Source: an uncultured Clostridia bacterium (GTDB lineage Bacteria > Bacillota > Clostridia > Christensenellales > CAG-1252). Taken from it: DNA of 32,504 nt. The translations under genes and the position numbers were made by a program. The stretch covers positions 1-32,504 of the forward strand of contig CAMOTC010000009.1 of NCBI GenBank assembly GCA_946625545.1, read 5' to 3'. The notes beneath the pieces are model-generated. The model saw only the letters and a program-made list of their open reading frames with translations, was not told the DNA's origin and did no database searches. The stretch's first letter is position 1; every line of letters begins with the position of its first letter. Below, in pieces: positions 10,265 through 28,142 of the stretch.

Positions 10265-10896
10265 TGGCAGTCATGCGGGTAAACCCCACGCGTATGGAAT
10301 TGACCCGCCTGAAGGGCAGGCTCAAGACCGCGACGAGGGGACACAAATTACTCAAGGATAAGTCGGACGAGATGATACGGCAGTTTATGCTGCTCATTCG
10401 CCGAAATCTCGCCTTGCGCGAGGAGGTCGAACGCGAGCTTCGCTCGGTGCTCGGCTCATTTATGCTCGCGAAAGCGGTGTCTTCCCCCGCCGACCTCGAG
10501 GAGGCTGTCGCCGTCCCCGGCAAGAAGATCAGGATCAAGTCGGGCTCAAAGAACGTGATGAGCGTCGAGGTCCCCGCCTTTATCGTGGATAGGAGCGAGA
10601 AGGGGGAGGACTATCCTTACGGCTTCGCGTCCGTCACGGGCGAACTCGACTCCTGCATCGGCGCGATGGGGGATCTCTTGCCCAAGATGATCGAGCTCGC
10701 CGAGGTGGAGAAGAGCTGTAATATGCTCGCCGACGAGATCGAGAAGAATAGGAGACGCGTCAATGCCCTAGAGTACGTGATGATCCCCGAGTTTCAGGAG
10801 ACCATCAAGTATATCACGATGAAACTCGACGAAGCCGAGAGGGCAAATACCATACGACTGATGAAGGTCAAATCCATGATCGAGGGTCGGAAATGA
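10264..10896 (+). CDS. ntpD: V-type ATPase central shaft subunit D
   Basis: 210 residues. Long antiparallel helices at both ends with the family start (VNPTRMELTRLKGRLKTATRGHKLLKDK) and end (RRRVNALEYVMIP plus a helical tail). It forms the rotating shaft inside the A3B3 head. It closes the V-ATPase set and overlaps the following esterase gene by ATGA. No terminator separates them. Confidence 0.96.
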   Translation: MAVMRVNPTRMELTRLKGRLKTATRGHKLLKDKSDEMIRQFMLLIRRNLALREEVERELRSVLGSFMLAKAVSSPADLEEAVAVPGKKIRIKSGSKNVMSVEVPAFIVDRSEKGEDYPYGFASVTGELDSCIGAMGDLLPKMIELAEVEKSCNMLADEIEKNRRRVNALEYVMIPEFQETIKYITMKLDEAERANTIRLMKVKSMIEGRK

Positions 10897-11897
10897 CGGA
10901 GATAAGATCCACACTGCTCGAACACATATTCCAATGCGAAGGTAGGCGTTACGTGAAAAACGGGCGCCTGTTTTTGAACGCCTCGGGTGCGAGCCTCAAG
11001 GGACGTTTTAGGGGAGAGCGTCTCTCTTTGAACCTCTTTTCCGAGCCTACCGTCAAGGGGCGGAACGCCTATATCCGTTTGACTATGGACGGCGCGCGTC
11101 GCCGCGTCCGATTGCCTGTCGGGGAAAAGGTGCTTTCCTTTTCTTTCCCCGCGGGTGAGCATACCTTCGAGCTCATTAAACTCAACGAATCGGAGAGTAA
11201 TTCTCTCGCCCTTATCTCGGCGACCACCGACGGCGAGTTTCTGCCCGTCATAGAGGGCGAAAAACCGAAAATAGAGTTTATCGGCGACTCCATCACGACG
11301 GGCTTCGGCGTGCGTGCGAAAAGGGCGGACGAGGAGTACACGACCGCCACGCAGGACGTGACTCTCGCCTATTCCTATTCTACCGCTCGCGCCTTAAATG
11401 CCGAGATGGAGATCTGTGCCGCGAGCGGATGGGGACTGTATAAGTCCAAGTATGCGGAGAACGCCGTTCCCGACTTTTACGAGAATATCGACCTCACGCG
11501 CAATAGAGAAAAGTACGACTTCTCTTTCCGTCCCGACGTCATCGTCCTCGCCCTCTGCACCAACGACTTTTCCTATCTCGCCGACCTCGCGGGGGAGGAA
11601 AGGGAAAGGGAATACGCCACTCTCAAGCGGAAGTCGATCGCTTTTATAAAGAAGTTATTACAGCGCGCTCCCGTCGTATGGGTGTACGGCTTCAGCGGCT
11701 CGGAGAGTCAAAAGGGTCTCCCCGCCTTTATCGAGGAAGTTTGGCTCGAAACGGAGTGCTCTAACTTCTATACCTTGCAGGTCAAGGACTCGCACTCATT
11801 GAATGATATTTGCGCGGGACACCCGGGGAGAAGGACGCACAAGCTTGCTTCGCGCCGGCTTGCGCGCTTTTTGCGCTCCCTTATAGGCAGCGTATAA
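10893..11897 (+). CDS. SGNH/GDSL hydrolase with CE2-like N-terminal domain
   Basis: 334 residues. Residues about 1-120 look like the beta-sandwich head of CE2-type carbohydrate esterases (paired strands around LNLFSEPTVKGRNAYIRLTMDG); the rest is an SGNH hydrolase. Block I is IEFIGDSITTGFG with the nucleophile Ser133, block II is ASGWG, block III is LCTND with Asn224, and block V is AGHPG with His310. The residue three before His310 is Cys307, not the canonical Asp, so a Ser-His dyad as described for some CE2 enzymes is possible. No signal peptide is visible, so the enzyme seems cytoplasmic and may remove acetyl groups from imported glycosides. Its ATG lies in the stop of ntpD, which makes it a coupled tenth member after the nine V-ATPase genes. 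Confidence 0.85.
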   Translation: MTEIRSTLLEHIFQCEGRRYVKNGRLFLNASGASLKGRFRGERLSLNLFSEPTVKGRNAYIRLTMDGARRRVRLPVGEKVLSFSFPAGEHTFELIKLNESESNSLALISATTDGEFLPVIEGEKPKIEFIGDSITTGFGVRAKRADEEYTTATQDVTLAYSYSTARALNAEMEICAASGWGLYKSKYAENAVPDFYENIDLTRNREKYDFSFRPDVIVLALCTNDFSYLADLAGEEREREYATLKRKSIAFIKKLLQRAPVVWVYGFSGSESQKGLPAFIEEVWLETECSNFYTLQVKDSHSLNDICAGHPGRRTHKLASRRLARFLRSLIGSV

Positions 11898-12072
11898 GGG
11901 CGCATCAGCTTTGTTATTTGCAGAGCTTAAACTGCGGATGTAATAAAGTGCGATGGGCTTGGCATTTCGCTTGCAGAGTTTTTCTCCGCTCCCTCATTTT
12001 TCGGTTTGGAGCAGGAAATCAAATAACGCTTTTTCGGAGCGAATGCGACCCGCAACTACGAGCATAGCGAGT

Positions 12073-12141
12073 AACTTCACTTGCCGCACGTAAACTTCAC
12101 TGCGCGCAAAGAGCGCGCAACTTCACTGTCCCGTAGGGACA
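12073..12141 (+). repeat. Palindrome array with AACTTCACT spacers
   Basis: Three exact copies of AACTTCACT (12073, 12093, 12119) alternate with hairpins: TGCGCGC/GCGCGCA with a five-base loop (12101-12119) and TGTCCC/GGGACA with a three-base loop (12127-12141). The spacer word stays constant while the hairpin sequence changes. The array sits in the 305-base non-coding gap 11898-12202, which otherwise shows a weak GCTCC/GGAGC stem but no clear terminator or gene. Confidence 0.8.
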
Positions 12142-12167
12142 ACTCTTCGCTTCCTCTCGCATAGTCC

Positions 12168-12196
12168 TTTACAATTCCCGTTACTTGCTTTATACT
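12168..12196 (+). promoter_or_regulatory. Promoter of the GH36 gene, possibly leaderless
   Basis: TTTACA, 17 bases, TATACT (5 of 6 at both boxes). The -10 ends six bases before ATG 12203, so transcription is predicted to start at or within a base of the start codon. No purine-rich ribosome site lies in the 20 bases before the ATG. Confidence 0.7.
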
Positions 12197-12202
12197 ATCG
12201 TT

Positions 12203-14725
12203 ATGGAAAATACCGCAAACGTTGAACAAAGCAAGATCCGCTCGTTCTTCCTGTCGCCCGCACTTCTCATCGCGGCACAGATCGTTTTGTCTATAGCGAT
12301 CGCCGCGGGGGCGATATTCTATACCTATGCGACCGTCATCGTCTATCGCTTGTGGAAGCTCGTCTTGATCGACATCGACTTTATCCTCTGCGCGGGGGCC
12401 CTCTTTACCATCGTGTATTTCGAGAAACATCCCGATTGTAAACTATGGCACCTCGCCTTTCCTTTCGTGATCGGCGCGGGAGTCTTTGCGGGTCTCTTTT
12501 TCGGCGCGCAGGCGATCCTCGCCCATTACTTCAATCCCACCTTATGCTGTATTATCGGCGTCTCCATCGCACTCGCCTTTGACATCGCTTGCGTGATCGC
12601 GCAGGACATCTTTGCCATCAAGCGGGACAGGCGCTTTTACCTGATCTGGACCATCGTCTTTGTGATCGCGGTATATATCGGGACGCTCCTATTATCCTTT
12701 ATGACCCTGCCGCACGGCTGGCTTTTTAAGAATCTATCCAAGGACGCCCATACCTTCAGTACGGCGGGATACGAGGCGTATGCTCTGACCGCCGAGGACA
12801 GGGAGGCGGGGAAAGACTGGATGAATGCCGCGCTTATGGGAGATGGAAAGGACGCACCCTTTGACTTCGCGATCGGGGACACGACCTTCCGCACGGCGAG
12901 CGCCTCGTGGGAGAGTATAGTCGAAAAGAACGACACTGCCGAAAACGGCGATCTCTCCTTTATCAAGACCTATACCTCTCCGTCGGGCTTGGAGGTGCGC
13001 CTCGTGGCGGCATACTACGACCTGACGGGGACGGTCGAATGGACGGTCTATCTAACGAATCGCGGCGCGGGAAATACCCCCGAGGTCACCGACCTCTACG
13101 CGATGGATGCCTCTCTCGACATCCTCTCTCCCACCCTCTATTTCAGCGGCGGGAGCAACGAGGCGAATGACGACTACGTCCTCTATTCCCGCTCACTCGG
13201 AAAGTCGGGTTGCACCTTCGATACCGTGAACGGCAGGGCGTCTAAACTCTATCTGCCTTTCTTTAATCTCACGTCGGAGGAGCGCGGCGCCACGATCGGC
13301 ATCGGCTGGTCGGGAGAGTGGACGGCGAGCTTCGCCGCAGACGAGAATACCTCGGTCAAAATCGGACAGAGCGCCCTCGCGGGCTATCTCTCGCCGGGGG
13401 AGAGCATCCGCACCCCATTGGTCTCGCTCTCTCTGTATGCGGGGGGCAATCCTCTCAAGGGCTTCAACAATTTCCGCGCAGATATAAAGCGCGGACTCGG
13501 AGAGGATCGCACGGCGAATATGGTGATGTTTGCGGGAGCGGAAGGGCAGGACGACACGTCGCGCGCGAATGAAGCGGGGACGAAAGCCTATCTCGAAAAG
13601 CTCGCGGAGCTCACGCTCCTCGACGAATTGGACTACGCTTGGTACGACGCCGCCTGGTACGATACCTCGGGGACGAAGGATTGGCGTCAGTCGATCGGAG
13701 ACTGGACGGTGGACTCTGTGAAATATCCGAGCGGTCTCGGCGCGGTCAGCGACACTCTCGGGGAAAATGAGGTCGGGATGCTTCTATGGTACGAGCCCGA
13801 GCGCGTCCCGATGACCTCTAAACTCTACGCTTCCATCAAGGCGGCGGGGCACGACTCTTGGCTGATCGAACCTACGAACGGCTCCTCAGACTGCTTATGG
13901 AATATGGGGAATCCCGCGGCCCTCGCGTATATGACGGACTATATCGCCTCCTCTCTCATCGAGAATGGGGTCAGCTATTACAGGCAGGACTTTAATATCG
14001 ACCCGAAGCGCTATTGGGAGAGGGCGGATCGCGAGCTCGAGAATGGCAGGATCGGCTTTGCCGAGAATAAGTACGTCGCGGGGGAATACGCCTTCCTCGA
14101 CGCCCTTCGCGAGCGTATCCCCGGGCTCTTGATCGACAACTGCGCCTCGGGCGGCAGACGTATCGACCTCGAGATGTGCCGTCGCGCGGTGCCCCTGTGG
14201 CGGAGCGATTATCAATGCAAGAAGGAAAAGACCGACCTCTCCGAGGCGGCGCAGCAGCAGACCTACGGCTTGTCGCTATGGCTTCCCTATTCCTCTATCA
14301 CCCATCCTGCCGCGAGCAGTGAGTACGACTTCCGCTCTCTCCTCGGCGCCTGCGTGATGTGCTACGGGGACGTGCTTTACGACGCGCCCGAAGCGTACTC
14401 GGACTTTATCCGCGACTACGAGAGGATCAAAGGCTATTTCACCGAAAATTACTATCCATTGACCCCCTGCGCTCCGCGCACGGAGTGCGTCGCGATGCAG
14501 TTCGGCAACGAAAAGGAGGGAGTGATCCTACTCTATTCGCGCGAGGGGAACGACGGTGAAGTCACCTTCCTTCTGAATGGGCTCGCGGCGGACAAGCACT
14601 ACGTCCTGCGTCCTCTCGAGGGGGGCGCGGTCGTGAGGAGCACGGGCAGTAGCCTGATGAATAAGGGATTTACTGCAGAGGCGGCGGAAAAGACGGCGCA
14701 TATCATTCTATACAGCGAGGGTTGA
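12203..14725 (+). CDS. Membrane-anchored GH36-like glycosidase (alpha-galactosidase clan)
   Basis: 840 residues. Five predicted membrane helices (about 20-47, 52-73, 83-107, 111-135, 145-167) come first; with the basic KRDRR loop inside, the C-terminal part faces outward. The outer part is a GH36 fold: YAWYDAAWY, LLWYEPERV, the nucleophile motif YRQDFN with Asp596, then CASGGRRIDLEM and LWRSD with Asp669 as acid/base. The 73-residue gap between the two Asp fits GH36. The substrate cannot be read from sequence; alpha-galactosidase is the family default. The track start TTG 12185 would lie within the promoter, so ATG 12203 is chosen. A multi-helix anchor on a GH36 enzyme is unusual. It is followed after four bases by a GH127-like gene. 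Confidence 0.88.
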   Translation: MENTANVEQSKIRSFFLSPALLIAAQIVLSIAIAAGAIFYTYATVIVYRLWKLVLIDIDFILCAGALFTIVYFEKHPDCKLWHLAFPFVIGAGVFAGLFFGAQAILAHYFNPTLCCIIGVSIALAFDIACVIAQDIFAIKRDRRFYLIWTIVFVIAVYIGTLLLSFMTLPHGWLFKNLSKDAHTFSTAGYEAYALTAEDREAGKDWMNAALMGDGKDAPFDFAIGDTTFRTASASWESIVEKNDTAENGDLSFIKTYTSPSGLEVRLVAAYYDLTGTVEWTVYLTNRGAGNTPEVTDLYAMDASLDILSPTLYFSGGSNEANDDYVLYSRSLGKSGCTFDTVNGRASKLYLPFFNLTSEERGATIGIGWSGEWTASFAADENTSVKIGQSALAGYLSPGESIRTPLVSLSLYAGGNPLKGFNNFRADIKRGLGEDRTANMVMFAGAEGQDDTSRANEAGTKAYLEKLAELTLLDELDYAWYDAAWYDTSGTKDWRQSIGDWTVDSVKYPSGLGAVSDTLGENEVGMLLWYEPERVPMTSKLYASIKAAGHDSWLIEPTNGSSDCLWNMGNPAALAYMTDYIASSLIENGVSYYRQDFNIDPKRYWERADRELENGRIGFAENKYVAGEYAFLDALRERIPGLLIDNCASGGRRIDLEMCRRAVPLWRSDYQCKKEKTDLSEAAQQQTYGLSLWLPYSSITHPAASSEYDFRSLLGACVMCYGDVLYDAPEAYSDFIRDYERIKGYFTENYYPLTPCAPRTECVAMQFGNEKEGVILLYSREGNDGEVTFLLNGLAADKHYVLRPLEGGAVVRSTGSSLMNKGFTAEAAEKTAHIILYSEG

Positions 14726-14729
14726 CCAC

Positions 14730-16511
14730 ATGAAATATACCTATCTCCCGAACGGCTATCAATCGTACACCGACAGATCGGACGCCTATCTGCGTTTCAT
14801 CATTGAAAGGCAACTGATGGACAGCGCTCTGTGGTCAAAGTTCGTCGATGTCTATAGGACGCGCGAGGACGCAGGAGACGACGGCTGGCGCGGCGAGTAC
14901 TACGGCAAGATGATGCGGGGTGCCTGCCTCGCCTATAAGTGCCGTCCCGACGAGGCGCTCTACAGCGTGCTCGAGAGGACGGTCAAGGAGCTGATCGCGA
15001 CCGCCGATGAGATGGGGCGCATCTCCACCTATCCCGTGGATCACGAGCTGTGCGGCTGGGATATGTGGTGCAGAAAGTACGTCCTCGTCGGCTCTCTCTA
15101 TTTCTACGATATTTGCCATGACAAGGATCTCAAGGAGAGCATTCTCACGGCGCTTCGCCGACATTTGGACTATATCGCGGCGAGGATCGGAGAGGGGAAG
15201 ACCTCTGTCACCGATACCTCGAATTGGTACGGTGGGATGAATGCCGCCTCTATCTTGGAGCCCGTCGTGGAGATGTATAAGATCACCCGAGAGCCTGCCT
15301 ATCTCGCCCTCGCTCAGCACATCATCGCCTCGGGCGGGTGCCGTGACGGCAGCGTTCCCGAAGCGGTGGAAAAGGGGGTACTTCCGCACGAATTTCCCAC
15401 CACCAAGGCGTATGAGACGATGTCCTACTTTGAGGGTATCCTCGCCTATTATGAGCTCACGGGGGAGAGAGAGTATCTCGACCTCGTGGAGAAGTTCTCC
15501 GACCTCGTGGCGGAGAATGAGATCACCTTGATCGGCTGTGCGGGGTGCCGTGACGAGCACTTCGATCACGCCGCCGTGACCCAGGCAAACGACGTCCCCG
15601 AGAAGACCATTATGCAGGAGACCTGCGTGACGGTGACCTGGATGCGCCTCGAGGAGAGACTGCTCCGCGTGACGGGGAATATGAAGTACGCCGAGCGCAT
15701 CGAGACCTCGGCATTGAACGCCCTCTACGGTGCGATCAATCTGTACGGTGAAAAGCAGTACTGCAAGGAGGAGAAAGCCTTTTTGGATGGCGTCCCCTTT
15801 GATAGTTACAGCCCCCTCGTTGCGTCTCGCCGCGGCGTCGGGATCGGCGGTTATAAGAAATTTGCGAGCGGCGGCTACTACGGCTGTTGCGCCTGTATCG
15901 GTGCGGCGGGCGTCGCGCTCTATCCTCTCGCTTCGGTGATGACGTCCAAGAAGGGCGCAATCGTCCTTTTCTATCACGCGGGCGAGATCAAGATCCCCTT
16001 CGATGGCGGCGAGATGCGCCTTGCGGCGACAGGATCTCTCGCAACGGGGCAGATGGATTACGTCGTGACTGCCGCCCCGACAGGGGAGTGCGAGATCACC
16101 TTCCGTATCCCCGCCTGGAGCAAAGGGAGCACGGTCACCTTGAACGGCGAGAAAGTCGAGAGTGCGGAGAGTACTTGCACCCTTCGCCGCACGTGGAAAG
16201 CGGGCGACGCTATCTCTCTCTCCTTCGCGCTCTCGGGCGAGAAATATCTTTTGAATGGAAAGGTCGCCTTCAAGTACGGCCCCTTCGTCCTCGCGCGGGA
16301 CGAAGCGAAAGGGAGCGATCCGAGTGAAAAGCTGAAACTCACGGACCTTCTACTCCTCCTCCCCATCACACCGACGGAAGAGGAAGAAGTGCGGCTCCTC
16401 CTGCATACCGAGAAGGGAGAAGTCCTCCTAAGCGACTACGCCTCCTCGGGCAAGCGCTGGACGGAGAAAAAGAGCAGGATCGCCGTTTGGCTCCCCGCTG
16501 TGCGAAAATAG
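14730..16511 (+). CDS. GH127-like (DUF1680) glycosidase, beta-L-arabinofuranosidase type
   Basis: 593 residues, no signal peptide, so cytoplasmic. The (alpha/alpha)6 barrel part carries NWYGGMNAAS and the metal/nucleophile set of GH127: Glu297 and Cys299 in QETCVTVTWM, Cys386 and Cys387 in YYGCCACIG. These match Glu338, Cys340, Cys417 and Cys418 of Bifidobacterium HypBA1, where Cys417 is the nucleophile and the set binds zinc. The beta-rich C-terminal part (EITFRIPAWSKG, VTLNGEKV) is normal. Slightly shorter than HypBA1 (658 residues). Its ATG follows the GH36 stop by four bases with GAGGG as ribosome site, so both enzymes should act on one glycan, first outside and then inside the cell. Specificity within GH127 and related families is uncertain. 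Confidence 0.88.
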   Translation: MKYTYLPNGYQSYTDRSDAYLRFIIERQLMDSALWSKFVDVYRTREDAGDDGWRGEYYGKMMRGACLAYKCRPDEALYSVLERTVKELIATADEMGRISTYPVDHELCGWDMWCRKYVLVGSLYFYDICHDKDLKESILTALRRHLDYIAARIGEGKTSVTDTSNWYGGMNAASILEPVVEMYKITREPAYLALAQHIIASGGCRDGSVPEAVEKGVLPHEFPTTKAYETMSYFEGILAYYELTGEREYLDLVEKFSDLVAENEITLIGCAGCRDEHFDHAAVTQANDVPEKTIMQETCVTVTWMRLEERLLRVTGNMKYAERIETSALNALYGAINLYGEKQYCKEEKAFLDGVPFDSYSPLVASRRGVGIGGYKKFASGGYYGCCACIGAAGVALYPLASVMTSKKGAIVLFYHAGEIKIPFDGGEMRLAATGSLATGQMDYVVTAAPTGECEITFRIPAWSKGSTVTLNGEKVESAESTCTLRRTWKAGDAISLSFALSGEKYLLNGKVAFKYGPFVLARDEAKGSDPSEKLKLTDLLLLLPITPTEEEEVRLLLHTEKGEVLLSDYASSGKRWTEKKSRIAVWLPAVRK

Positions 16512-18624: not shown

Positions 18625-18653
18625 TTGACGAATACTAACTTGTATAATATACT
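18625..18653 (+). promoter_or_regulatory. PadR-operon promoter with palindrome over the -10
   Basis: TTGACG, 17 bases, TATACT. The 11-base perfect palindrome GTATAATATAC (18642-18652) covers the -10 region and is a good candidate operator for autoregulation by the PadR encoded just downstream. AAAAGG before the ATG is the ribosome site. Confidence 0.6.
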
Positions 18654-18685: not shown

Positions 18686-19228
18686 ATGTCATTGAAACAC
18701 GGTTTACTCGGACTGCTTACTCTGCGCAAGTCGTCCGGCTACGATCTGTCGAAACTATTTCAGGAATCCCTGAGCTTTTTCTGGGTGGCGAATCAGAGTC
18801 AGATCTATCGCGAACTCGACAAGATGGAGGAGGTCGGCTGGGTGGTCTCTTCCAAGGTGGAGCAAGACGCCCGCCCCAATAAGAGGGTGTACGGCATCAC
18901 GAAGGAAGGCAATAAGGAATTGATCCGTTGGCTGAAAGAGGGCAACGCGGAGGATCTCGCCGTCGTGAGAAATCCTCTCTTGATGAAGCTCTTTTTCTCA
19001 GGCAAAGTGGACAGGGAGTACGCGATCGGTATGCTCAAGGAGTATCGCAAGATCTGCGAGGAAGCGAGAGCGGAGATCGCCGCCGAGGTCGCAGGGATCG
19101 GCGAAGTGGAGGAGAGCGCGGCAAAGCCCGCCTATTGGCTGTATGCGACGCAGTATGCCGTCCGCCAGTATGAGTTTCAGATCAAGTGGATCGACGAGAC
19201 CGTCGCACGCTTGACAAAATTGAAGTAA
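18686..19228 (+). CDS. PadR-family transcriptional regulator
   Basis: 180 residues. N-terminal winged helix (LKHGLLGLLTLRKSSGYDLSK; QSQIYRELDKMEEVGWV; KRVYGITKEGNKEL) and the C-terminal helical dimerisation domain of the long PadR group (about 90-178). The start is ATG 18686 rather than the GTG in the track. It opens a tight gene run and lies five bases before the helicase gene; the palindrome in its promoter suggests it represses its own operon, perhaps in response to a small molecule or stress. Confidence 0.93.
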   Translation: MSLKHGLLGLLTLRKSSGYDLSKLFQESLSFFWVANQSQIYRELDKMEEVGWVVSSKVEQDARPNKRVYGITKEGNKELIRWLKEGNAEDLAVVRNPLLMKLFFSGKVDREYAIGMLKEYRKICEEARAEIAAEVAGIGEVEESAAKPAYWLYATQYAVRQYEFQIKWIDETVARLTKLK

Positions 19229-19233
19229 AGACC

Positions 19234-21573
19234 ATGTCCGAGGCAGCGAGACTACCCGAAAGAGTGGTCGTTGATTACGATGACTACTATCTCACGGAGT
19301 ATTCCGTCTATAAGACGGAGTCTCTCTCCCTCGCGACGGAGAAGCTCGCGGGAGTCAATCTCCTTTTGACCCATCTCGCCTTTGCCGCGCTTGCTGCGGG
19401 AATACGGGAGGGGACGTACGGATTTTCGGCGGAGGACGTAAAGTTCTTCGCCCGTTTTTCTCTCTCGGGGGAGGGTCGCACAGGGGGTGCGAGCGTTATT
19501 TTTTACGACTTTCGCTCCTATCCCGTGACCTCGAGCGGGGATATGCGGCTTAGAGGTCTCACGGATTTTCGCGTGGAGAGAGCCTCTGCCAATGACATCT
19601 CGTATGCGAAACTCTATCGCACTTTCAGCGCGGAGACAAATCTCCCTCTCCTCGACGACTTGCAGAGAAAGATCGTCTTTACCGAGGGCAAGAATATGCT
19701 CGTGCAGGGCATCGCGGGGAGCGGCAAGACCAATCTCTGTATCGACAAGATCCTCTTTGCCGCCTCGATGAATTACGGCGGGCGCACGCTGTACAGCACC
19801 TATTCGCGCGGCTTGCTCCTCGACGTGAGAAATAAGGTGGAGGCATATCTCCGCTCCTTGAAAGAGTATTACGCCGCCTATGCGGCAGGGCGGGCGACTG
19901 TCGGAGGAGACTCCGAGATCCTCGCGGCGGAGCGCTTGATCGGCGTCCCGCTCTCCTCTGCGGAAGGGGTGGCGCCTCAGCTCGAACGCATCATCGACTA
20001 TCTCGAGAATAAGGTGGACTATCTCCTGCTCGAGGACATTTTTCGCGCTTCTCTCGGAGAGAGGACGCGTGCCGACGAGAATACCTTTTTTGACTTTCTC
20101 CGTCATTCCAAAAACTATAATCTCCTCCAACGCAGGAAAAAGTCAGAGGTCTCCGACGAGGTCCTCTATAAGGAGATCTACGGCTTTATCTACGGGAAAG
20201 CCACGACTCGCCCCCTCACCAAGGAGGAATATCTCCTCGCGAGGAAGGGCGCCTTCTCCCGCTTTGACACGGAGTTTATCTACGACCTGTCCGAGGAGTA
20301 TCTCTCGGAGATCCGCGCAAGGGGGCTTTTGGACTTAAATCTCGCCTGCGCCGAGGTCGCTCTCCCCGCTATCCCCACCTACTCCCTCGCGATCCTCGAC
20401 GAGGTGCAGGACTTCACCGAGCGTCAGCTCGCTTTCTTCCGCTCTCTCGCGGTCAAGCTCTTTTGCGTGGGTGACGCCTCGCAGATGGTAAACCCCGCTT
20501 ATTTCTCCTTTGCGCGGCTCAAGGATCTCCTCTATAAAAAGGACGTGACCGACGTCGAGGAGCTCAGCTACAATTACCGCAACAGTCCCGAGATCGCAGG
20601 GGTGGTCGCCTCTCTCTCCGACCTAAATCGCGCTACCTTCGGCGTGCACGGATTCGTGCTCTCCGCAGAGGCGGTGGCGTCAGAGGCAGGCTCTATTGCG
20701 GTGCATTTCAAGACGGCGGACTTTATAAAAAGGATCGCAAGGGAAAAGACGGATAACTTCACCGTCGTCGTCGCGACCGCCCGCGAGAAGCAAGCGCTCC
20801 GCGAGCTCCTGCCGAAAAAGGAGATCTTGACCGTCTCCGAGATCAAGGGCTTAGAGCGCGATACCGTCGTCCTCTACAACGTCCTTTCCTCCAATAAGGA
20901 CAAGTTCCACGCCCTCGCTCGCACCGAGATCGACAGGAAGGGCGCGGATGAAAACAGCGTCTATCGCTACTATTTCAATCTCTTTTACGTCGGCGTGTCG
21001 AGAGCGCGCCGCCATCTCTTTGTCGCAGAGGAGGGGGAGATCGCGCAGTTCAGCGATTTCTTTAAGGAGAATTTCCGCTCTCTCACCACCGCGGACGCCG
21101 TGATGAAGCTCAAGGAGACGGTGGGCAGTACCCTCGTCGATCAGGAAGAGCACAAGCGCCGTGCGGAGGAGTTTACCCGTCTCGGGCAGTACGATAACGC
21201 TATCCACGCCGCGAATAACCTCGTCAACGATAAGGAGCGCGAGCAGGCGATCTTGAACGTCACCGTCTGGCGCGACTACGTCTCGCGTGGCGACTACGTC
21301 GGCGCGGGTGTGGCGTATTGGGAAGGGGGCGACCTCGATAATGCCAAAAAGTACTTTGCCCTCGGCGGCGAGGGAGATCTCGTCGAGCTCTTGGAGGCTG
21401 CGTCGGGCGGCACCGACGAGAAGCTGGACTACAATATCCTACGTTACTACGACAGGCTGAAGGGGAATCCTTCGGTAATGCGTATCATCGAGTCGCTCTT
21501 GCGGCGTGATATCGATATGATCAATAAGATGACGCGAGAGACCTCTCGCAAGCTGAAAGCGAAAGCAAAATAA
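19234..21573 (+). CDS. Unusual SF1 (UvrD-like) helicase with TPR-like tail
   Basis: 779 residues. Residues 1-130 match nothing I recognise. SF1 motifs follow: Q residue in LDDLQRKIV, Walker A GIAGSGKT (159-166), Walker B LAILDEVQDFT (387-395), GDASQ (413-417), YNYRNSPEI (446-454), SEIKGLERDTVVLYN (motif V) and YVGVSRARRHLF (motif VI). All residues for ATP hydrolysis are present. The DEVQD form recalls the TRANK1-like branch more than PcrA/UvrD/RecB. Residues ~640-720 form repeated helices (FTRLGQYDNAIHAANNL, YWEGGDLDNAKKYFALG), TPR-like and so a likely protein-binding arm. No nuclease motif was seen. ATG 19234 is used because the track start lies within padR. It may be a DNA or RNA remodeller that works with the next two genes. 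Confidence 0.85.
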   Translation: MSEAARLPERVVVDYDDYYLTEYSVYKTESLSLATEKLAGVNLLLTHLAFAALAAGIREGTYGFSAEDVKFFARFSLSGEGRTGGASVIFYDFRSYPVTSSGDMRLRGLTDFRVERASANDISYAKLYRTFSAETNLPLLDDLQRKIVFTEGKNMLVQGIAGSGKTNLCIDKILFAASMNYGGRTLYSTYSRGLLLDVRNKVEAYLRSLKEYYAAYAAGRATVGGDSEILAAERLIGVPLSSAEGVAPQLERIIDYLENKVDYLLLEDIFRASLGERTRADENTFFDFLRHSKNYNLLQRRKKSEVSDEVLYKEIYGFIYGKATTRPLTKEEYLLARKGAFSRFDTEFIYDLSEEYLSEIRARGLLDLNLACAEVALPAIPTYSLAILDEVQDFTERQLAFFRSLAVKLFCVGDASQMVNPAYFSFARLKDLLYKKDVTDVEELSYNYRNSPEIAGVVASLSDLNRATFGVHGFVLSAEAVASEAGSIAVHFKTADFIKRIAREKTDNFTVVVATAREKQALRELLPKKEILTVSEIKGLERDTVVLYNVLSSNKDKFHALARTEIDRKGADENSVYRYYFNLFYVGVSRARRHLFVAEEGEIAQFSDFFKENFRSLTTADAVMKLKETVGSTLVDQEEHKRRAEEFTRLGQYDNAIHAANNLVNDKEREQAILNVTVWRDYVSRGDYVGAGVAYWEGGDLDNAKKYFALGGEGDLVELLEAASGGTDEKLDYNILRYYDRLKGNPSVMRIIESLLRRDIDMINKMTRETSRKLKAKAK

Positions 21574-21590
21574 CATAAAGGAGCAGAGCT

Positions 21591-22298
21591 ATGGAAGACG
21601 TAAAGACCTTGATAGAGACCTTTAGAGAATATCGCGATCTCTTGACCCCGATCACGGAGAATCTCCGTGACTTTGCGGATACCTACGATGGGATGAAAGG
21701 GGATATCGCGAGGCTGTCCGCCGCCTTTGAAGGGGACGTGACGGGCAATCTCGACCGCATCTATAAGACCCTATCCGCCGAGGCGGCGAAGGCGCAGAGC
21801 CTATCGCACGAGATCGACGCTTTCCTGTCAAGGAGCGAGAAGTACGAAGCGCAGCTCTCCAAGCTCACTGCGACTCTCGGCAAGCTGGACGGCACCTTGG
21901 ACTCCCTCTCCAAGCTCGAGAGCGAGGCGGAGACCCAGATCGGCAAGCTCGAAGCCACCCTCGAGGAGCGCAGGAAAAACTACAATCTGAAGGAGCTCGA
22001 GCGCACCGTCGCGAACTATCAGGCGGGCGTCACCAAGGTCAGCGAGTATATCAATCGTGACGTGGTCTCCGCTCTGCAGGATAATAACGATAAACTGAAT
22101 TCCATTCGTGACGGAATGGAGGAGATCCGCGTGGGCATTCGCGAGGGAAATCGCGATATGGAGACCCTTGTCGAATCCTTCGCTGCCACTTCGGAACTTT
22201 TACGCAAGGTCACCGAGGGCGAGCAGGTCAACGAAGCCTATATCTACGATATTCTCGATCGTTGGGCGGCGGAAAGAGGAGTCAAAAGGACGAAATAA
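21591..22298 (+). CDS. Long coiled-coil protein, unknown function
   Basis: 235 residues, nearly all helical with heptads from about 35 to 215 (DAFLSRSEKYEAQLSKLTAT, LDSLSKLESEAETQIGKLEA). There is no signal peptide or membrane helix, so it should be cytosolic. A predicted conserved tail (VNEAYIYDILDRWAAERG) may be a docking site. The ribosome site AAAGGAG is good. The stop overlaps the next ATG by one base, so its product is made in step with the GLUG membrane protein. Possible role: a linker or scaffold between helicase and membrane protein. I do not recognise the family. Confidence 0.8.
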   Translation: MEDVKTLIETFREYRDLLTPITENLRDFADTYDGMKGDIARLSAAFEGDVTGNLDRIYKTLSAEAAKAQSLSHEIDAFLSRSEKYEAQLSKLTATLGKLDGTLDSLSKLESEAETQIGKLEATLEERRKNYNLKELERTVANYQAGVTKVSEYINRDVVSALQDNNDKLNSIRDGMEEIRVGIREGNRDMETLVESFAATSELLRKVTEGEQVNEAYIYDILDRWAAERGVKRTK

Positions 22299-24607
22299 TG
22301 CTGAAAGAGACGCGTGAAAAACTGATCGAATGTATCCGCAAGGATGACAAGGCGGCATTCGGGGTTTTTATGACCCCCGAGATCCTCTCCGCCGTCTTCG
22401 GTCGTTTTCCCCTCCTCTCTCTCCTCTATCTCTACGACGCGAAGAGGATCGTCAAGCGCTATCTTTCCGAGCTTGTCAAGGAGAGACCGCGCAATAAGGA
22501 AGCCTCCTTCGCAGAGGCGGACGCTCTCTTTGCTTCGCGTGCGGGGAAGTGTTTGCGCTATTATATCTTCGCCGACGTCCCGCCTCTCGAGATGCTCGCG
22601 GTGCTCGGCAAGAGCAGGGAGCTCGAAAAGCTGTATGCGGTAGATCCCTCCGCCTCTCGCTCTCTCCCGATGCTCCATAAGATCTACTATACCCGCCTCG
22701 GCGCGGGCATCATCGTGAAGGGGGAGAAGCTCATCCTTCCGCGCGAGCCCCTCTCCTTTGGAGAAAAGAGGACTTTCACTCGATTTGCCCTGATCTTTCT
22801 CAGTGTATTTATCCTGATCGCCGCACTCACGAGCGTGACTTTCTTCTATTACGGCGTCGGGAGCGGCGGCAACTACTATCGCGTGAGAAGCGCGGAGGAA
22901 GTGGCGCTTTCTTTAGAGAAAGACCAAGATTTTAAGTTGGAGAAGGACGTCACCCTCTCCGCCGTCGTGGAAAATTATACCTCCAAGATGGATGGCGGCG
23001 GCCATTTCGTATATTTGAGCGCTCCCTTTGCACAAAAGCTGACGGGAGAGATCACCGACGTGATCTTTGTCATCGAGAAAGGGTTTGTCGGCGACGCGAT
23101 CATTCTCGAGAACGCAGGTGCCTTAAAGAACGTGCGCGTCATCGCAGAGGAGGTCACTTTCGCTAAAAGCGGCGAAGTCATGGGACTCCTGACTGCTGTA
23201 AACACGGGGGTCATTGAGAAGTGCACCGCCGTCCTCGACGTGACCATCGAGGGGGATGGCGGCGGAGACTGCTATTTCGCACCCTTTGCGGGAGAGAATA
23301 ACGGCACCATTCACAGCTGTGACATGGACGGCTCCGTCAAGGCGCGCAACGTGGACGTCGCGGGCGTCGTGGGCAAGAACGGCGAGAAGGGCGTCGTGAC
23401 CGACTGCGTCGTCAAAGGGGAGCTCGTCGAGCGCGCGGATATCAAAAATTGGACGCCGAACGTCGCGGGGATCGCGACGCAGAATGACGGCACGATCTAC
23501 GGCTGTACCGTGACAGGCAGTACGACCTCCATTCTCAGCGCTCCCGCTCTTGAGGAGACCGAGTCCCCTGCGAGCGCCTATGCCGCAGGGATCGCCTGCG
23601 TGAACGGCGGCAGTATCACCTCTTCGGAAAATCGCGGCACCGTCCTCGCGGAGAGCACGAACGGCTATGCCGATGCGGGCGGGATCGTGACCTTAAATGC
23701 CCACTATCTCTCTGATGGGACCATCCTCGCGGGAAAGGTGGACTCCTGCACGAGCTCGGGGGAGGTAAAGGCTCTCTCCTACAGTTATAACCCCTATGCG
23801 GGCGGGATCGCGGCGCAAAATCTGCAGGGCGGAGAGATCCGCGGGAGCACCGTCAGCGCACCTGTTCTCGCCACGCTCACTTTGGGAAAGATGACAGCGG
23901 GGCAGACGGGACTTTCCGCCGGTGCGGGCGGGATCGTCGCCTTGAATGTCGCGCTCGTCGAAGATTGCCGCGTGAATGCGCCCGTTCGCTCGATCGCCGA
24001 CTACGGACACGCGTCGGCAGGGGGCATCGTGTCGCTGAATTCCTACACGGGCAGTTATTACGGCAGGATCAGCGCTTCGCGCTCCTCGGGAGGAGTGTAC
24101 GGCGCGTCGGGGCAATATAACGTCTACGTCGGCGGGATCGCCGCGGAGAATTATCAGGCTTCTATCTCCACCTGCGGTCAGACGGGAGAGGTCTCGGGCG
24201 AGACCTCGGGCGAGCAGGCGTACTCCTTTATCGGCGGTATCGTCGGGTACAATTCGGGTGCGGTGGAAAAAAGCTTCTTTATCGGGACGATCTCGGACTA
24301 TGACGAGTCCAACTTTGTCGGCGGGATCTGCGGTCTGATCCGTCCCTCTTTCGCGATCAACCCTTTCACCGGGCGTTACCAAATGCAGATCGCCATGGCG
24401 GACAATTATTTCTCGGCGGGCGCTCATGCGAGCGGCTCTCTCTATCTCGATATGGCGTATCTCGATCTCCGTGCGAGAACGATCTACTCTCTCGCTTTCT
24501 TGGAGACGCACGAAGGATACGATCGCTACGTGACCGAATTGCTCGATTTCGGCGGGACGGCGGCAAGCGTAGATGCGATCAAGGCATCGGAGGTGTACTA
24601 TGAGTAA
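22298..24607 (+). CDS. Single-pass membrane protein with extracellular GLUG-like repeats
   Basis: 769 residues. Residues 1-160 are cytosolic helices with an ankyrin-like feel (GRFPLLSLLYLYDAKRIV; ADVPPLEMLAVLGKSRELEK). One membrane helix at about 161-187 (LIFLSVFILIAALTSVTFFYY). The outer part (about 200-700) holds some eleven GLUG-like units such as AGGIAAQNLQGGEIRG, VGGIAAENYQASISTC and IGGIVGYNSGAVEKSFFIG, which build a right-handed beta-helix in surface proteins. No signal peptide, sortase motif or lipobox. The track start at 22262 overlaps the coiled-coil gene; ATG 22298 is used. The cytosolic head and co-translated partners suggest an outside-to-inside sensor or anchor rather than a plain adhesin, but that is inference. 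Confidence 0.82.
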   Translation: MLKETREKLIECIRKDDKAAFGVFMTPEILSAVFGRFPLLSLLYLYDAKRIVKRYLSELVKERPRNKEASFAEADALFASRAGKCLRYYIFADVPPLEMLAVLGKSRELEKLYAVDPSASRSLPMLHKIYYTRLGAGIIVKGEKLILPREPLSFGEKRTFTRFALIFLSVFILIAALTSVTFFYYGVGSGGNYYRVRSAEEVALSLEKDQDFKLEKDVTLSAVVENYTSKMDGGGHFVYLSAPFAQKLTGEITDVIFVIEKGFVGDAIILENAGALKNVRVIAEEVTFAKSGEVMGLLTAVNTGVIEKCTAVLDVTIEGDGGGDCYFAPFAGENNGTIHSCDMDGSVKARNVDVAGVVGKNGEKGVVTDCVVKGELVERADIKNWTPNVAGIATQNDGTIYGCTVTGSTTSILSAPALEETESPASAYAAGIACVNGGSITSSENRGTVLAESTNGYADAGGIVTLNAHYLSDGTILAGKVDSCTSSGEVKALSYSYNPYAGGIAAQNLQGGEIRGSTVSAPVLATLTLGKMTAGQTGLSAGAGGIVALNVALVEDCRVNAPVRSIADYGHASAGGIVSLNSYTGSYYGRISASRSSGGVYGASGQYNVYVGGIAAENYQASISTCGQTGEVSGETSGEQAYSFIGGIVGYNSGAVEKSFFIGTISDYDESNFVGGICGLIRPSFAINPFTGRYQMQIAMADNYFSAGAHASGSLYLDMAYLDLRARTIYSLAFLETHEGYDRYVTELLDFGGTAASVDAIKASEVYYE

Positions 24608-24863
24608 GCGTTTTAAGGTCATTGTCCTCTCCGTTGCCGCAGGACTTTTGGTGATTTTCCTCGCGATGCTGCTCCTCGCGGTGCCGATCGGGGCGAAAGC
24701 GGCGGTTTTGCCCATCCTCGCCTTTTACGTCACGGGCGGGATCGTCGGACTGCTCTATCTCGCGGCGGGGATTTTTTCTTTGGTTTGTCGCTTTCGCGGG
24801 TTGACGGGAAAGGGCGCGAAGTATTATGATAATAAAAATACCTCAAATTATAAGGGGAATTAG
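24600..24863 (+). CDS. Small two-helix membrane protein
   Basis: 87 residues with two hydrophobic helices (about 6-34 and 40-62; IVLSVAAGLLVIFLAMLLLAV, GGIVGLLYLAAGIFSLVC) and a polar tail (KYYDNKNTSNYKGN). It overlaps the GLUG gene by eight bases, so it belongs to the same cassette. Its 3' end contains the probable rel promoter. Function unknown; the track extends it nine residues too far upstream. Confidence 0.75.
   Translation: MSKRFKVIVLSVAAGLLVIFLAMLLLAVPIGAKAAVLPILAFYVTGGIVGLLYLAAGIFSLVCRFRGLTGKGAKYYDNKNTSNYKGN
24801..24830 (+). promoter_or_regulatory. Probable internal promoter for rel
   Basis: TTGACG, 18 bases, TATGAT inside the end of the small membrane gene, in a stretch that becomes sharply AT-rich. 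Predicted start about 30 bases before the rel ATG, with AAGGGGA as ribosome site. It would let rel be expressed without the PadR cassette. Confidence 0.55.
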
Positions 24864-27008: not shown

Positions 27009-28142
27009 ATGATAGAGATCAGAGAAGTACAGACAGGTTGCCAGCGCCGTGCTTTTGCGAATTTTCCGCTCAAGCTTTACCGCGACAACGAACATTACGC
27101 CCCCTTGTTTTATATGGATGAGAAGGCGCTGCTCAGCGAAAAGACCAATATCTACACCGACTACACCAAGAGCCGCTTCTTCCTCGCCTACGATGAGAAG
27201 GGCAAGGTCGTTGGGCGCGTCGGCGCTATCATAAACTATGCGGACATCGAAAAGACAGGGGTAAAGGCGATGCGCTTCACCCGCCTCGACGCGGTGGACG
27301 ATCCCGCCGTTTTCGCTGCCCTGATGGGTGCGGTGGAGGACTACGCTCGCGAGGAAGGGATGAGTAGCGTACACGGTCCTCTCGGCTATAACGACCTCGA
27401 TAAAGAGGGCTTGCTCGTGGAGGGGTTCGAGTACGACGAGACCTACGGCGGCGTGTATAATTATCCCTACTATCTCCCCAGGCTCGAGGAGCTCGGCTAC
27501 GCGAAGGAGTTCGACTGGATCGAGCGTAAGATCTACGTCGGCGATAAAGTGGACGAGAGATACGTCCGCATGGCGGAGGTGGTGAAAAACCGCTACCATT
27601 TCAAGGAGCTCATCGATAACGATATGTCCACGGGCTACGTCATCGACACCTACGCGGATCAGATCTTTCAGCTTCTCGACGAAGCCTATCGCAAACTGCA
27701 CGGCACCGTCCCCTTTACCGAGAAGGCGAAGGCGTCCATCATCTCGGGGCTCCGCATCATCGTCAAATCGCGCTATATCTCCTGCATCGCGGATGAAAAC
27801 GGCAAGCTGGTCGCTTTCGGCCTCCTGCTCCCCGCCATCTGGCACGCCCTGCGTAAGAGCCGCGGCAAGCTCTTTCCCTTCGGTATCTTCCACTTCCTCC
27901 CCCTCCTTTTCAAGAAACCCAAGGAGATGGAGATGGCACTCATCGGGATCGTGGACGAATATCGCAATAGCGGCGCCCACACCCTGATCATTCGCCGCTT
28001 GTGGCAAAACGTCATCGACGACGGCATCAAAGAGCTCGAGTCCAACGCAAACCTCGAGGATAACGTGGAGATCAATAACCTCCTCGGCAAGTTCCCGCAG
28101 AAACAGCATAAACGCCGTCGCTGTTTGATAAAGCAGCTTTGA
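27009..28142 (+). CDS. GNAT-superfamily (YghO-like) acyltransferase, predicted
   Basis: 377 residues. It resembles the large YghO-like group of GNAT proteins: an N-terminal FPLKLYRDNEHYAPLFYMDE motif, a GKVVGRVGAIINYADIEKTG core strand, VHGPLGYNDLDKEGLLVEGF in the middle, and a second acyltransferase-like half with ALIGIVDEYRNSGAHTLIIR. Substrates are not known for the family. No membrane helices. It follows rel by three bases, so both should be expressed together. It ends in a strongly basic tail (KQHKRRRCLIKQL). Terminators lie at 28185 and 28317. Confidence 0.78.
   Translation: MIEIREVQTGCQRRAFANFPLKLYRDNEHYAPLFYMDEKALLSEKTNIYTDYTKSRFFLAYDEKGKVVGRVGAIINYADIEKTGVKAMRFTRLDAVDDPAVFAALMGAVEDYAREEGMSSVHGPLGYNDLDKEGLLVEGFEYDETYGGVYNYPYYLPRLEELGYAKEFDWIERKIYVGDKVDERYVRMAEVVKNRYHFKELIDNDMSTGYVIDTYADQIFQLLDEAYRKLHGTVPFTEKAKASIISGLRIIVKSRYISCIADENGKLVAFGLLLPAIWHALRKSRGKLFPFGIFHFLPLLFKKPKEMEMALIGIVDEYRNSGAHTLIIRRLWQNVIDDGIKELESNANLEDNVEINNLLGKFPQKQHKRRRCLIKQL

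Follow-up and report, generated by a model that had tools for sequence, protein, structure and literature searches.

The window, i.e. the whole analysed stretch of 32,504 nucleotides, is a single contig from a draft genome of 1.45 Mb that is 81% complete; the closest relatives of this genome are draft genomes listed as Christensenella sp. and Clostridia. Its forward strand carries five consecutive genes. The first one (18686-19228, ATG start) encodes a PadR-family regulator (PF03551, 5.6e-14; PF10400, 3e-12) and is preceded by a sigma-70-like promoter candidate at 18625-18653 on the same strand (TTGACG-17-TATACT, 10/12), proposed solely from its match to the consensus. Next come the genes of an SF1A (UvrD/HelD-like) helicase (19234-21573, ATG), a cytosolic coiled-coil protein (21591-22298), a single-pass GLUG membrane protein (22295-24607, ATG) and a small protein with two transmembrane helices (24600-24863, ATG). 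Five bases separate padR from the helicase gene and 17 bases the latter from the coiled-coil gene, while the coiled-coil and GLUG genes overlap by 4 bases, and the two-helix gene overlaps the end of the GLUG gene, including its stop codon, by 8. The tight packing reported in the preliminary description, with gaps of at most 17 bases and two overlaps, agrees with the coordinates and open reading frames. A GTG at 19186 inside padR is an unlikely start of the helicase gene; ATG 19234 is the best one, because the orthologs begin there.

Divergent NlpC/P60 and DUF4349 genes lie upstream of the block and a RelA/SpoT gene downstream. Further 5' of the operon, at 10893-16511, we noticed an unrelated carbohydrate-use cluster with CE2-type esterase, melibiase-like and GH127 genes. 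After the RelA/SpoT gene a 377-residue open reading frame (27009-28142) shows 62-85% identity in loci of the same genus; it gave no Pfam match at E 0.001, and a frame of similar length overlaps it on the other strand.

The helicase had been described as an SF1 enzyme with a head of about 130 residues and a TPR-like tail, and its AlphaFold2 model (pLDDT 83) presents this layout: a beta-rich head (residues ~1-135), the SF1 core and an all-helical tail (~619-742). Its ATPase motifs are all intact: Walker A (G159-N167), the DExQD box (389-393) and the arginines of motifs IV and VI are invariant in 22 orthologs. The enzyme belongs to the UvrD-like SF1A group on account of Walker A, DExQ, motifs III-VI, PF00580 above its cut-off (1.5e-7) and UvrD/PcrA/Rep folds. 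The top Foldseek match is HelD (6wvk), with UvrD, IGHMBP2 and UPF1 also found, so that both RNA and DNA are possible substrates. SF1 proteins related more remotely (25% identity; loci L039-L061 of Intestinibacter, cyanobacteria and others) were considered as carriers of the same system and rejected as separate families; no coiled-coil, GLUG-head or release-factor neighbours were found in those loci.

Every intact locus has an ortholog of the coiled-coil protein in the adjacent position (31-87% identity), and the C-terminal motif VN..YIFEILD.WA..R.VK is conserved; Pfam returned only generic coiled-coil matches. For the GLUG protein (PF07581, 1.9e-6) the AlphaFold2 model agrees with the topology put forward earlier: a confidently modelled helical cytosolic head (residues 1-150; 22295-22744), a transmembrane helix (155-186; ~22757-22852) and then a GLUG beta-helix ectodomain, predicted to face outside. 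Foldseek gave weak generic beta-helix matches (best 2.7e-3). By eye the head resembled ankyrin repeats, an identity for which neither Pfam nor PDB provided a match, and we leave it unnamed; its profile (A3) is specific to the operon. The length of the ectodomain is highly variable, the whole protein ranging from ~580 to more than 1000 residues (e.g. L037 13038-16286; L129 4981-8001). The two-helix protein had no Pfam match.

The suggestion that these genes form a cassette of unrecognised kind was examined in other genomes, where their falling apart would have spoken against it. In every sufficiently long locus (55 loci, some being second copies of one genome's record) the helicase, coiled-coil and GLUG genes are adjacent, on one strand and in the same order, therefore their grouping is not a matter of chance. 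The helicase and coiled-coil genes overlap by a median of 4 bases, the coiled-coil and GLUG genes are a median of 2 bases apart, and this arrangement holds down to 34-38% helicase identity. Co-occurrence of all four structural genes had been proposed as a check; it is complete for these three in such loci, whereas about half of the loci (31/55) have a two-helix-like frame after the GLUG gene. PadR, counted earlier as the controller of the cassette, was found only in loci of the window's genus and is a genus-specific addition. Thus the conserved unit is real, PadR does not belong to it, and a key partner, a release-factor-like protein, lies outside the window.

Searched with the GLUG-head profile, 63 of the 396 genomes of the window's order carry the operon, as a single copy and across 8 families; a sample of 398 genomes from elsewhere in the phylum gave nothing beyond noise. 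The helicase profile gave an agreeing distribution, and candidate orthologs elsewhere in the phylum were discarded as partial core-helicase matches (147-164 bits vs 1068). The operon is nearly universal in some genera, among them the window's own (12/13 genomes).

Directly upstream of the helicase gene, in 45 loci all outside the window's genus, stands a gene for a paralog of class-I release factors, often with a 4-base overlap between its stop codon and the start of the helicase gene. The protein matches PF00472 at 1e-26 to 4e-34, its PCRF part is usually degenerate, and it remains far below the NCBIfam cut-off for RF1/RF2 (97-291 bits vs 400-423). The GGQ peptidyl-hydrolase loop, GGQ(N/H)(V/I)N, is kept in 46 of 46 aligned copies, operon-borne and detached, and every one of them lacks the codon-reading segment (RVPxTESQGRxHTS of RF1, SPF...HTS of RF2) that housekeeping release factors in this order possess. 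In the 396 genomes counted, three or more RF-1 proteins were found in 52 of 63 with the operon vs 5 of 333 without it (Fisher p ~5e-48, ignoring relatedness). Two of the 11 operon genomes lacking a third factor (G019, G369) show the divergent copy only, because their housekeeping factors are missing from the draft. The operon-less genomes with at least three such proteins are G090, G102, G116, G118 and G253, several of them low-quality drafts; other members of the genus of G116 carry the operon. In one locus (L031 6170-9956, Lab288P1bin40) the release-factor-like gene is 2.8 kb away from the helicase gene, with a 556-residue frame in between.

In the window's genus PadR sits where other operon carriers have the release-factor-like gene, and the latter is found at another locus (G002, G009, G011 and G006); a third factor is also present in G005 and G010, hence a third or detached copy was found in 6 of the 12 operon carriers of this genus. 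In the tree the detached copies of G002, G009 and G011 are separated from RF1 and RF2 (100/99) and group as sisters (95/92) with the copies that the sister genus has in its operons. The gene has thus moved, PadR has taken its slot, and at least half of the genus has kept it. After the detached gene, in all four genomes examined, comes a gene for a secreted TYAWFT-type protein (L180 4773-6908; L181 4808-7277; L182 3911-6596; L202), which begins with MKKRLLITSIVMMLVVAVALSTATYAWFTSN in the three loci read. Neither the release-factor-like gene nor this neighbour was found in the window's 81%-complete draft; since the neighbour is missing as well, the former may still be present in the full genome. 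In the window's genus the module may also work without the release-factor-like protein.

The operon is patchy, being present in some and absent from other genomes of several genera. In both the helicase and the release-factor trees the operons of one family nest inside those of another, and gene-tree distances are concordant among the four genes (Mantel r 0.87-0.94); the operon has been transferred between families. One genome pair of the same genus exposes an empty site, with a block of ~7.3 kb in one genome vs ~250 bases in the other between collinear flanks, and no terminal repeats were found at the cassette borders. Inside the inserted block a small helix-turn-helix-like frame (L125 5238-5803) lies just upstream of the release-factor-like gene and is possibly a regulator of the cassette in that genus. 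All genes of the operon are under purifying selection, with the ectodomain evolving faster than the cytosolic parts. In well-sampled genera dN/dS is 0.07-0.17 for the helicase, 0.06-0.12 for the coiled coil and 0.12-0.20 for the release-factor-like gene, values which are approximate because synonymous sites are near saturation.

Taken together, the operon points to a new, membrane-linked way of controlling or rescuing ribosomes, and we give about even chances to its being a membrane-anchored translation-release module. Its core would consist of the class-I release-factor paralog, the SF1A helicase, the coiled coil and the single-pass protein with its predicted extracellular beta-helix. Retention of the GGQ loop suggests that the paralog hydrolyses peptidyl-tRNA on stalled ribosomes: it would enter the ribosomal A site in the absence of a stop codon, and the ATP-driven helicase, moving on mRNA (or rRNA), would clear or split the same ribosome. 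The coiled coil would bind the helicase, probably at the helical tail, and connect it with the cytosolic head of the membrane protein, whose ectodomain may recruit or switch the complex on an outside or envelope signal; the envelope sensing considered in the preliminary description is thus retained in this model. In vivo, however, a hydrolase blind to codons could lack activity or serve in regulation. Nearly every operon genome tested also has SmpB and RqcH, so the operon is an added system; its role as a substitute for trans-translation or RqcH was rejected on the same grounds. Most likely it would serve, in addition to normal rescue, as an accessory response when ribosomes stall or are damaged or when the cell is attacked (phage, toxin). 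More tentatively, and here we lean towards doubt, the operon may be an envelope-to-ribosome signalling system, in which the beta-helix acts as a receptor triggering the paralog and the helicase to abort or rescue translation independently of codons, possibly as a form of immunity.

Among other explanations phage defence survives best, even so we find it rather unlikely. In a manner similar to Zorya or Gabija, the helicase would act on incoming DNA, the beta-helix would sense adsorption or injection, and the release-factor-like protein would be the effector stopping translation in infected cells. Patchiness within genera, movement between families as a discrete cassette and the fast-evolving ectodomain all fit such a role, as do the matches of GajB-type models to the window helicase (best 1.4e-12). 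However, the operon is flanked by ordinary metabolic genes. An enrichment in defence islands, proposed previously as a check, was not seen in a scan of 108 flanking proteins (with no matched control set), where no defence family occurred in more than two of them and the 25 commonest Pfam families included neither integrase nor transposase. Moreover, there is no nuclease or TOPRIM partner, and the operon is confined to one order while being nearly universal in some of its genera.

Envelope quality control has still less in its favour. Here a housekeeping-like complex, anchored near the translocon, would free ribosomes stalled on membrane or secreted proteins. This would account for the joint presence of a membrane anchor, a release factor and a helicase, as well as for single copy number, purifying selection and near-universality in the window's genus. 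Absence from most relatives and patchiness within genera are, on the other hand, unusual for a housekeeping function, and the ectodomain is large and variable; we consider this explanation improbable.

It is very unlikely that the release-factor-like gene is an unrelated hitchhiking neighbour and the true unit comprises the helicase, coiled coil and GLUG protein only. The trio of the window's genus does persist without that gene beside it, and about half of these genomes yielded no copy of it. Nevertheless, the 45 loci with adjacent genes have differing outer flanks, the 4-base overlap is frequent, and the co-occurrence is as strong as given above, with relatedness ignored; in addition, the gene has been retained after its relocation, and the trees match. 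Finally, a DNA uptake or DNA transport machine, to which a helicase and a surface-exposed protein in one operon had pointed, is hardly credible, as the operon is without any channel, pilin or ComEC-like part and its conserved partner is a release factor, which directs attention to the ribosome instead of DNA uptake or DNA-directed defence.

There are few release-factor paralogs, and the known kinds, such as ArfB and PrfH, each stand for a rescue pathway of their own. Provided that the translation-release reading is true, the operon would stand for a further pathway of this sort and for a direct link from the cell envelope to translation termination; to our knowledge no other release-factor paralog pathway is tied to an SF1 helicase and a transmembrane, outside-facing protein. 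The operon also shows that translation machinery not seen before can still be concealed in conserved operons of uncultured bacteria.

Comparison with known systems yields several partial likenesses. HelD is an RNA-polymerase recycling SF1 motor with a coiled coil that inserts into the polymerase. It is the top fold match of the operon helicase and a weak sequence match, scoring 27.1 bits vs the NF041464 cut-off of 419, and the head of the operon enzyme is beta-rich in contrast to that coiled coil. GajB of Gabija is a UvrD-like helicase similar in sequence (the above-mentioned 1.4e-12), differing in head, tail and neighbours, and no gene for GajA, the OLD-type nuclease, recurs beside the operon, which places it outside Gabija. 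Zorya, with a membrane protein, a coiled-coil part and a helicase, resembles the operon in its manner of working; neither the ZorA/ZorB motor pair nor ZorD is found in the operon, there being only cross-matches to the ZorA coiled coil, and it is no Zorya system. In eukaryotic mRNA surveillance UPF1 is an SF1 helicase working with release factors (eRF1). It is among the fold matches of the operon helicase, but it belongs to SF1B, and the fold of eRF1 is unrelated to that of the operon factor, which leaves an analogy only.

In the literature covered, with subscription journals and preprints mostly outside the search, we found no release factor paired with such a helicase, and a survey of bacterial release-factor paralogs (PMC6514570) does not mention a helicase. 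The closest in working is PrfH-RtcB, where release factor H shares an operon with an RNA ligase (PMC1586002, PMC9223846): the two share a class-I release-factor paralog, a patchy distribution and, as far as the proposed action of the operon holds, an RNA-acting enzyme beside the factor and a link to ribosome damage. Yet the operon proteins fail the PrfH scores (70-94 bits vs the TIGR03072 cut-off of 166.65) and, unlike PrfH, keep an RF1-like N-terminal part with the codon-reading motifs gone. Nor is rtcB a neighbour; where PrfH has RtcB, the operon factor is accompanied by the SF1 helicase, the coiled-coil protein and the GLUG membrane protein, and no further partner recurs. The parts of the operon come from known superfamilies, and no known kind of system combines them in this way.
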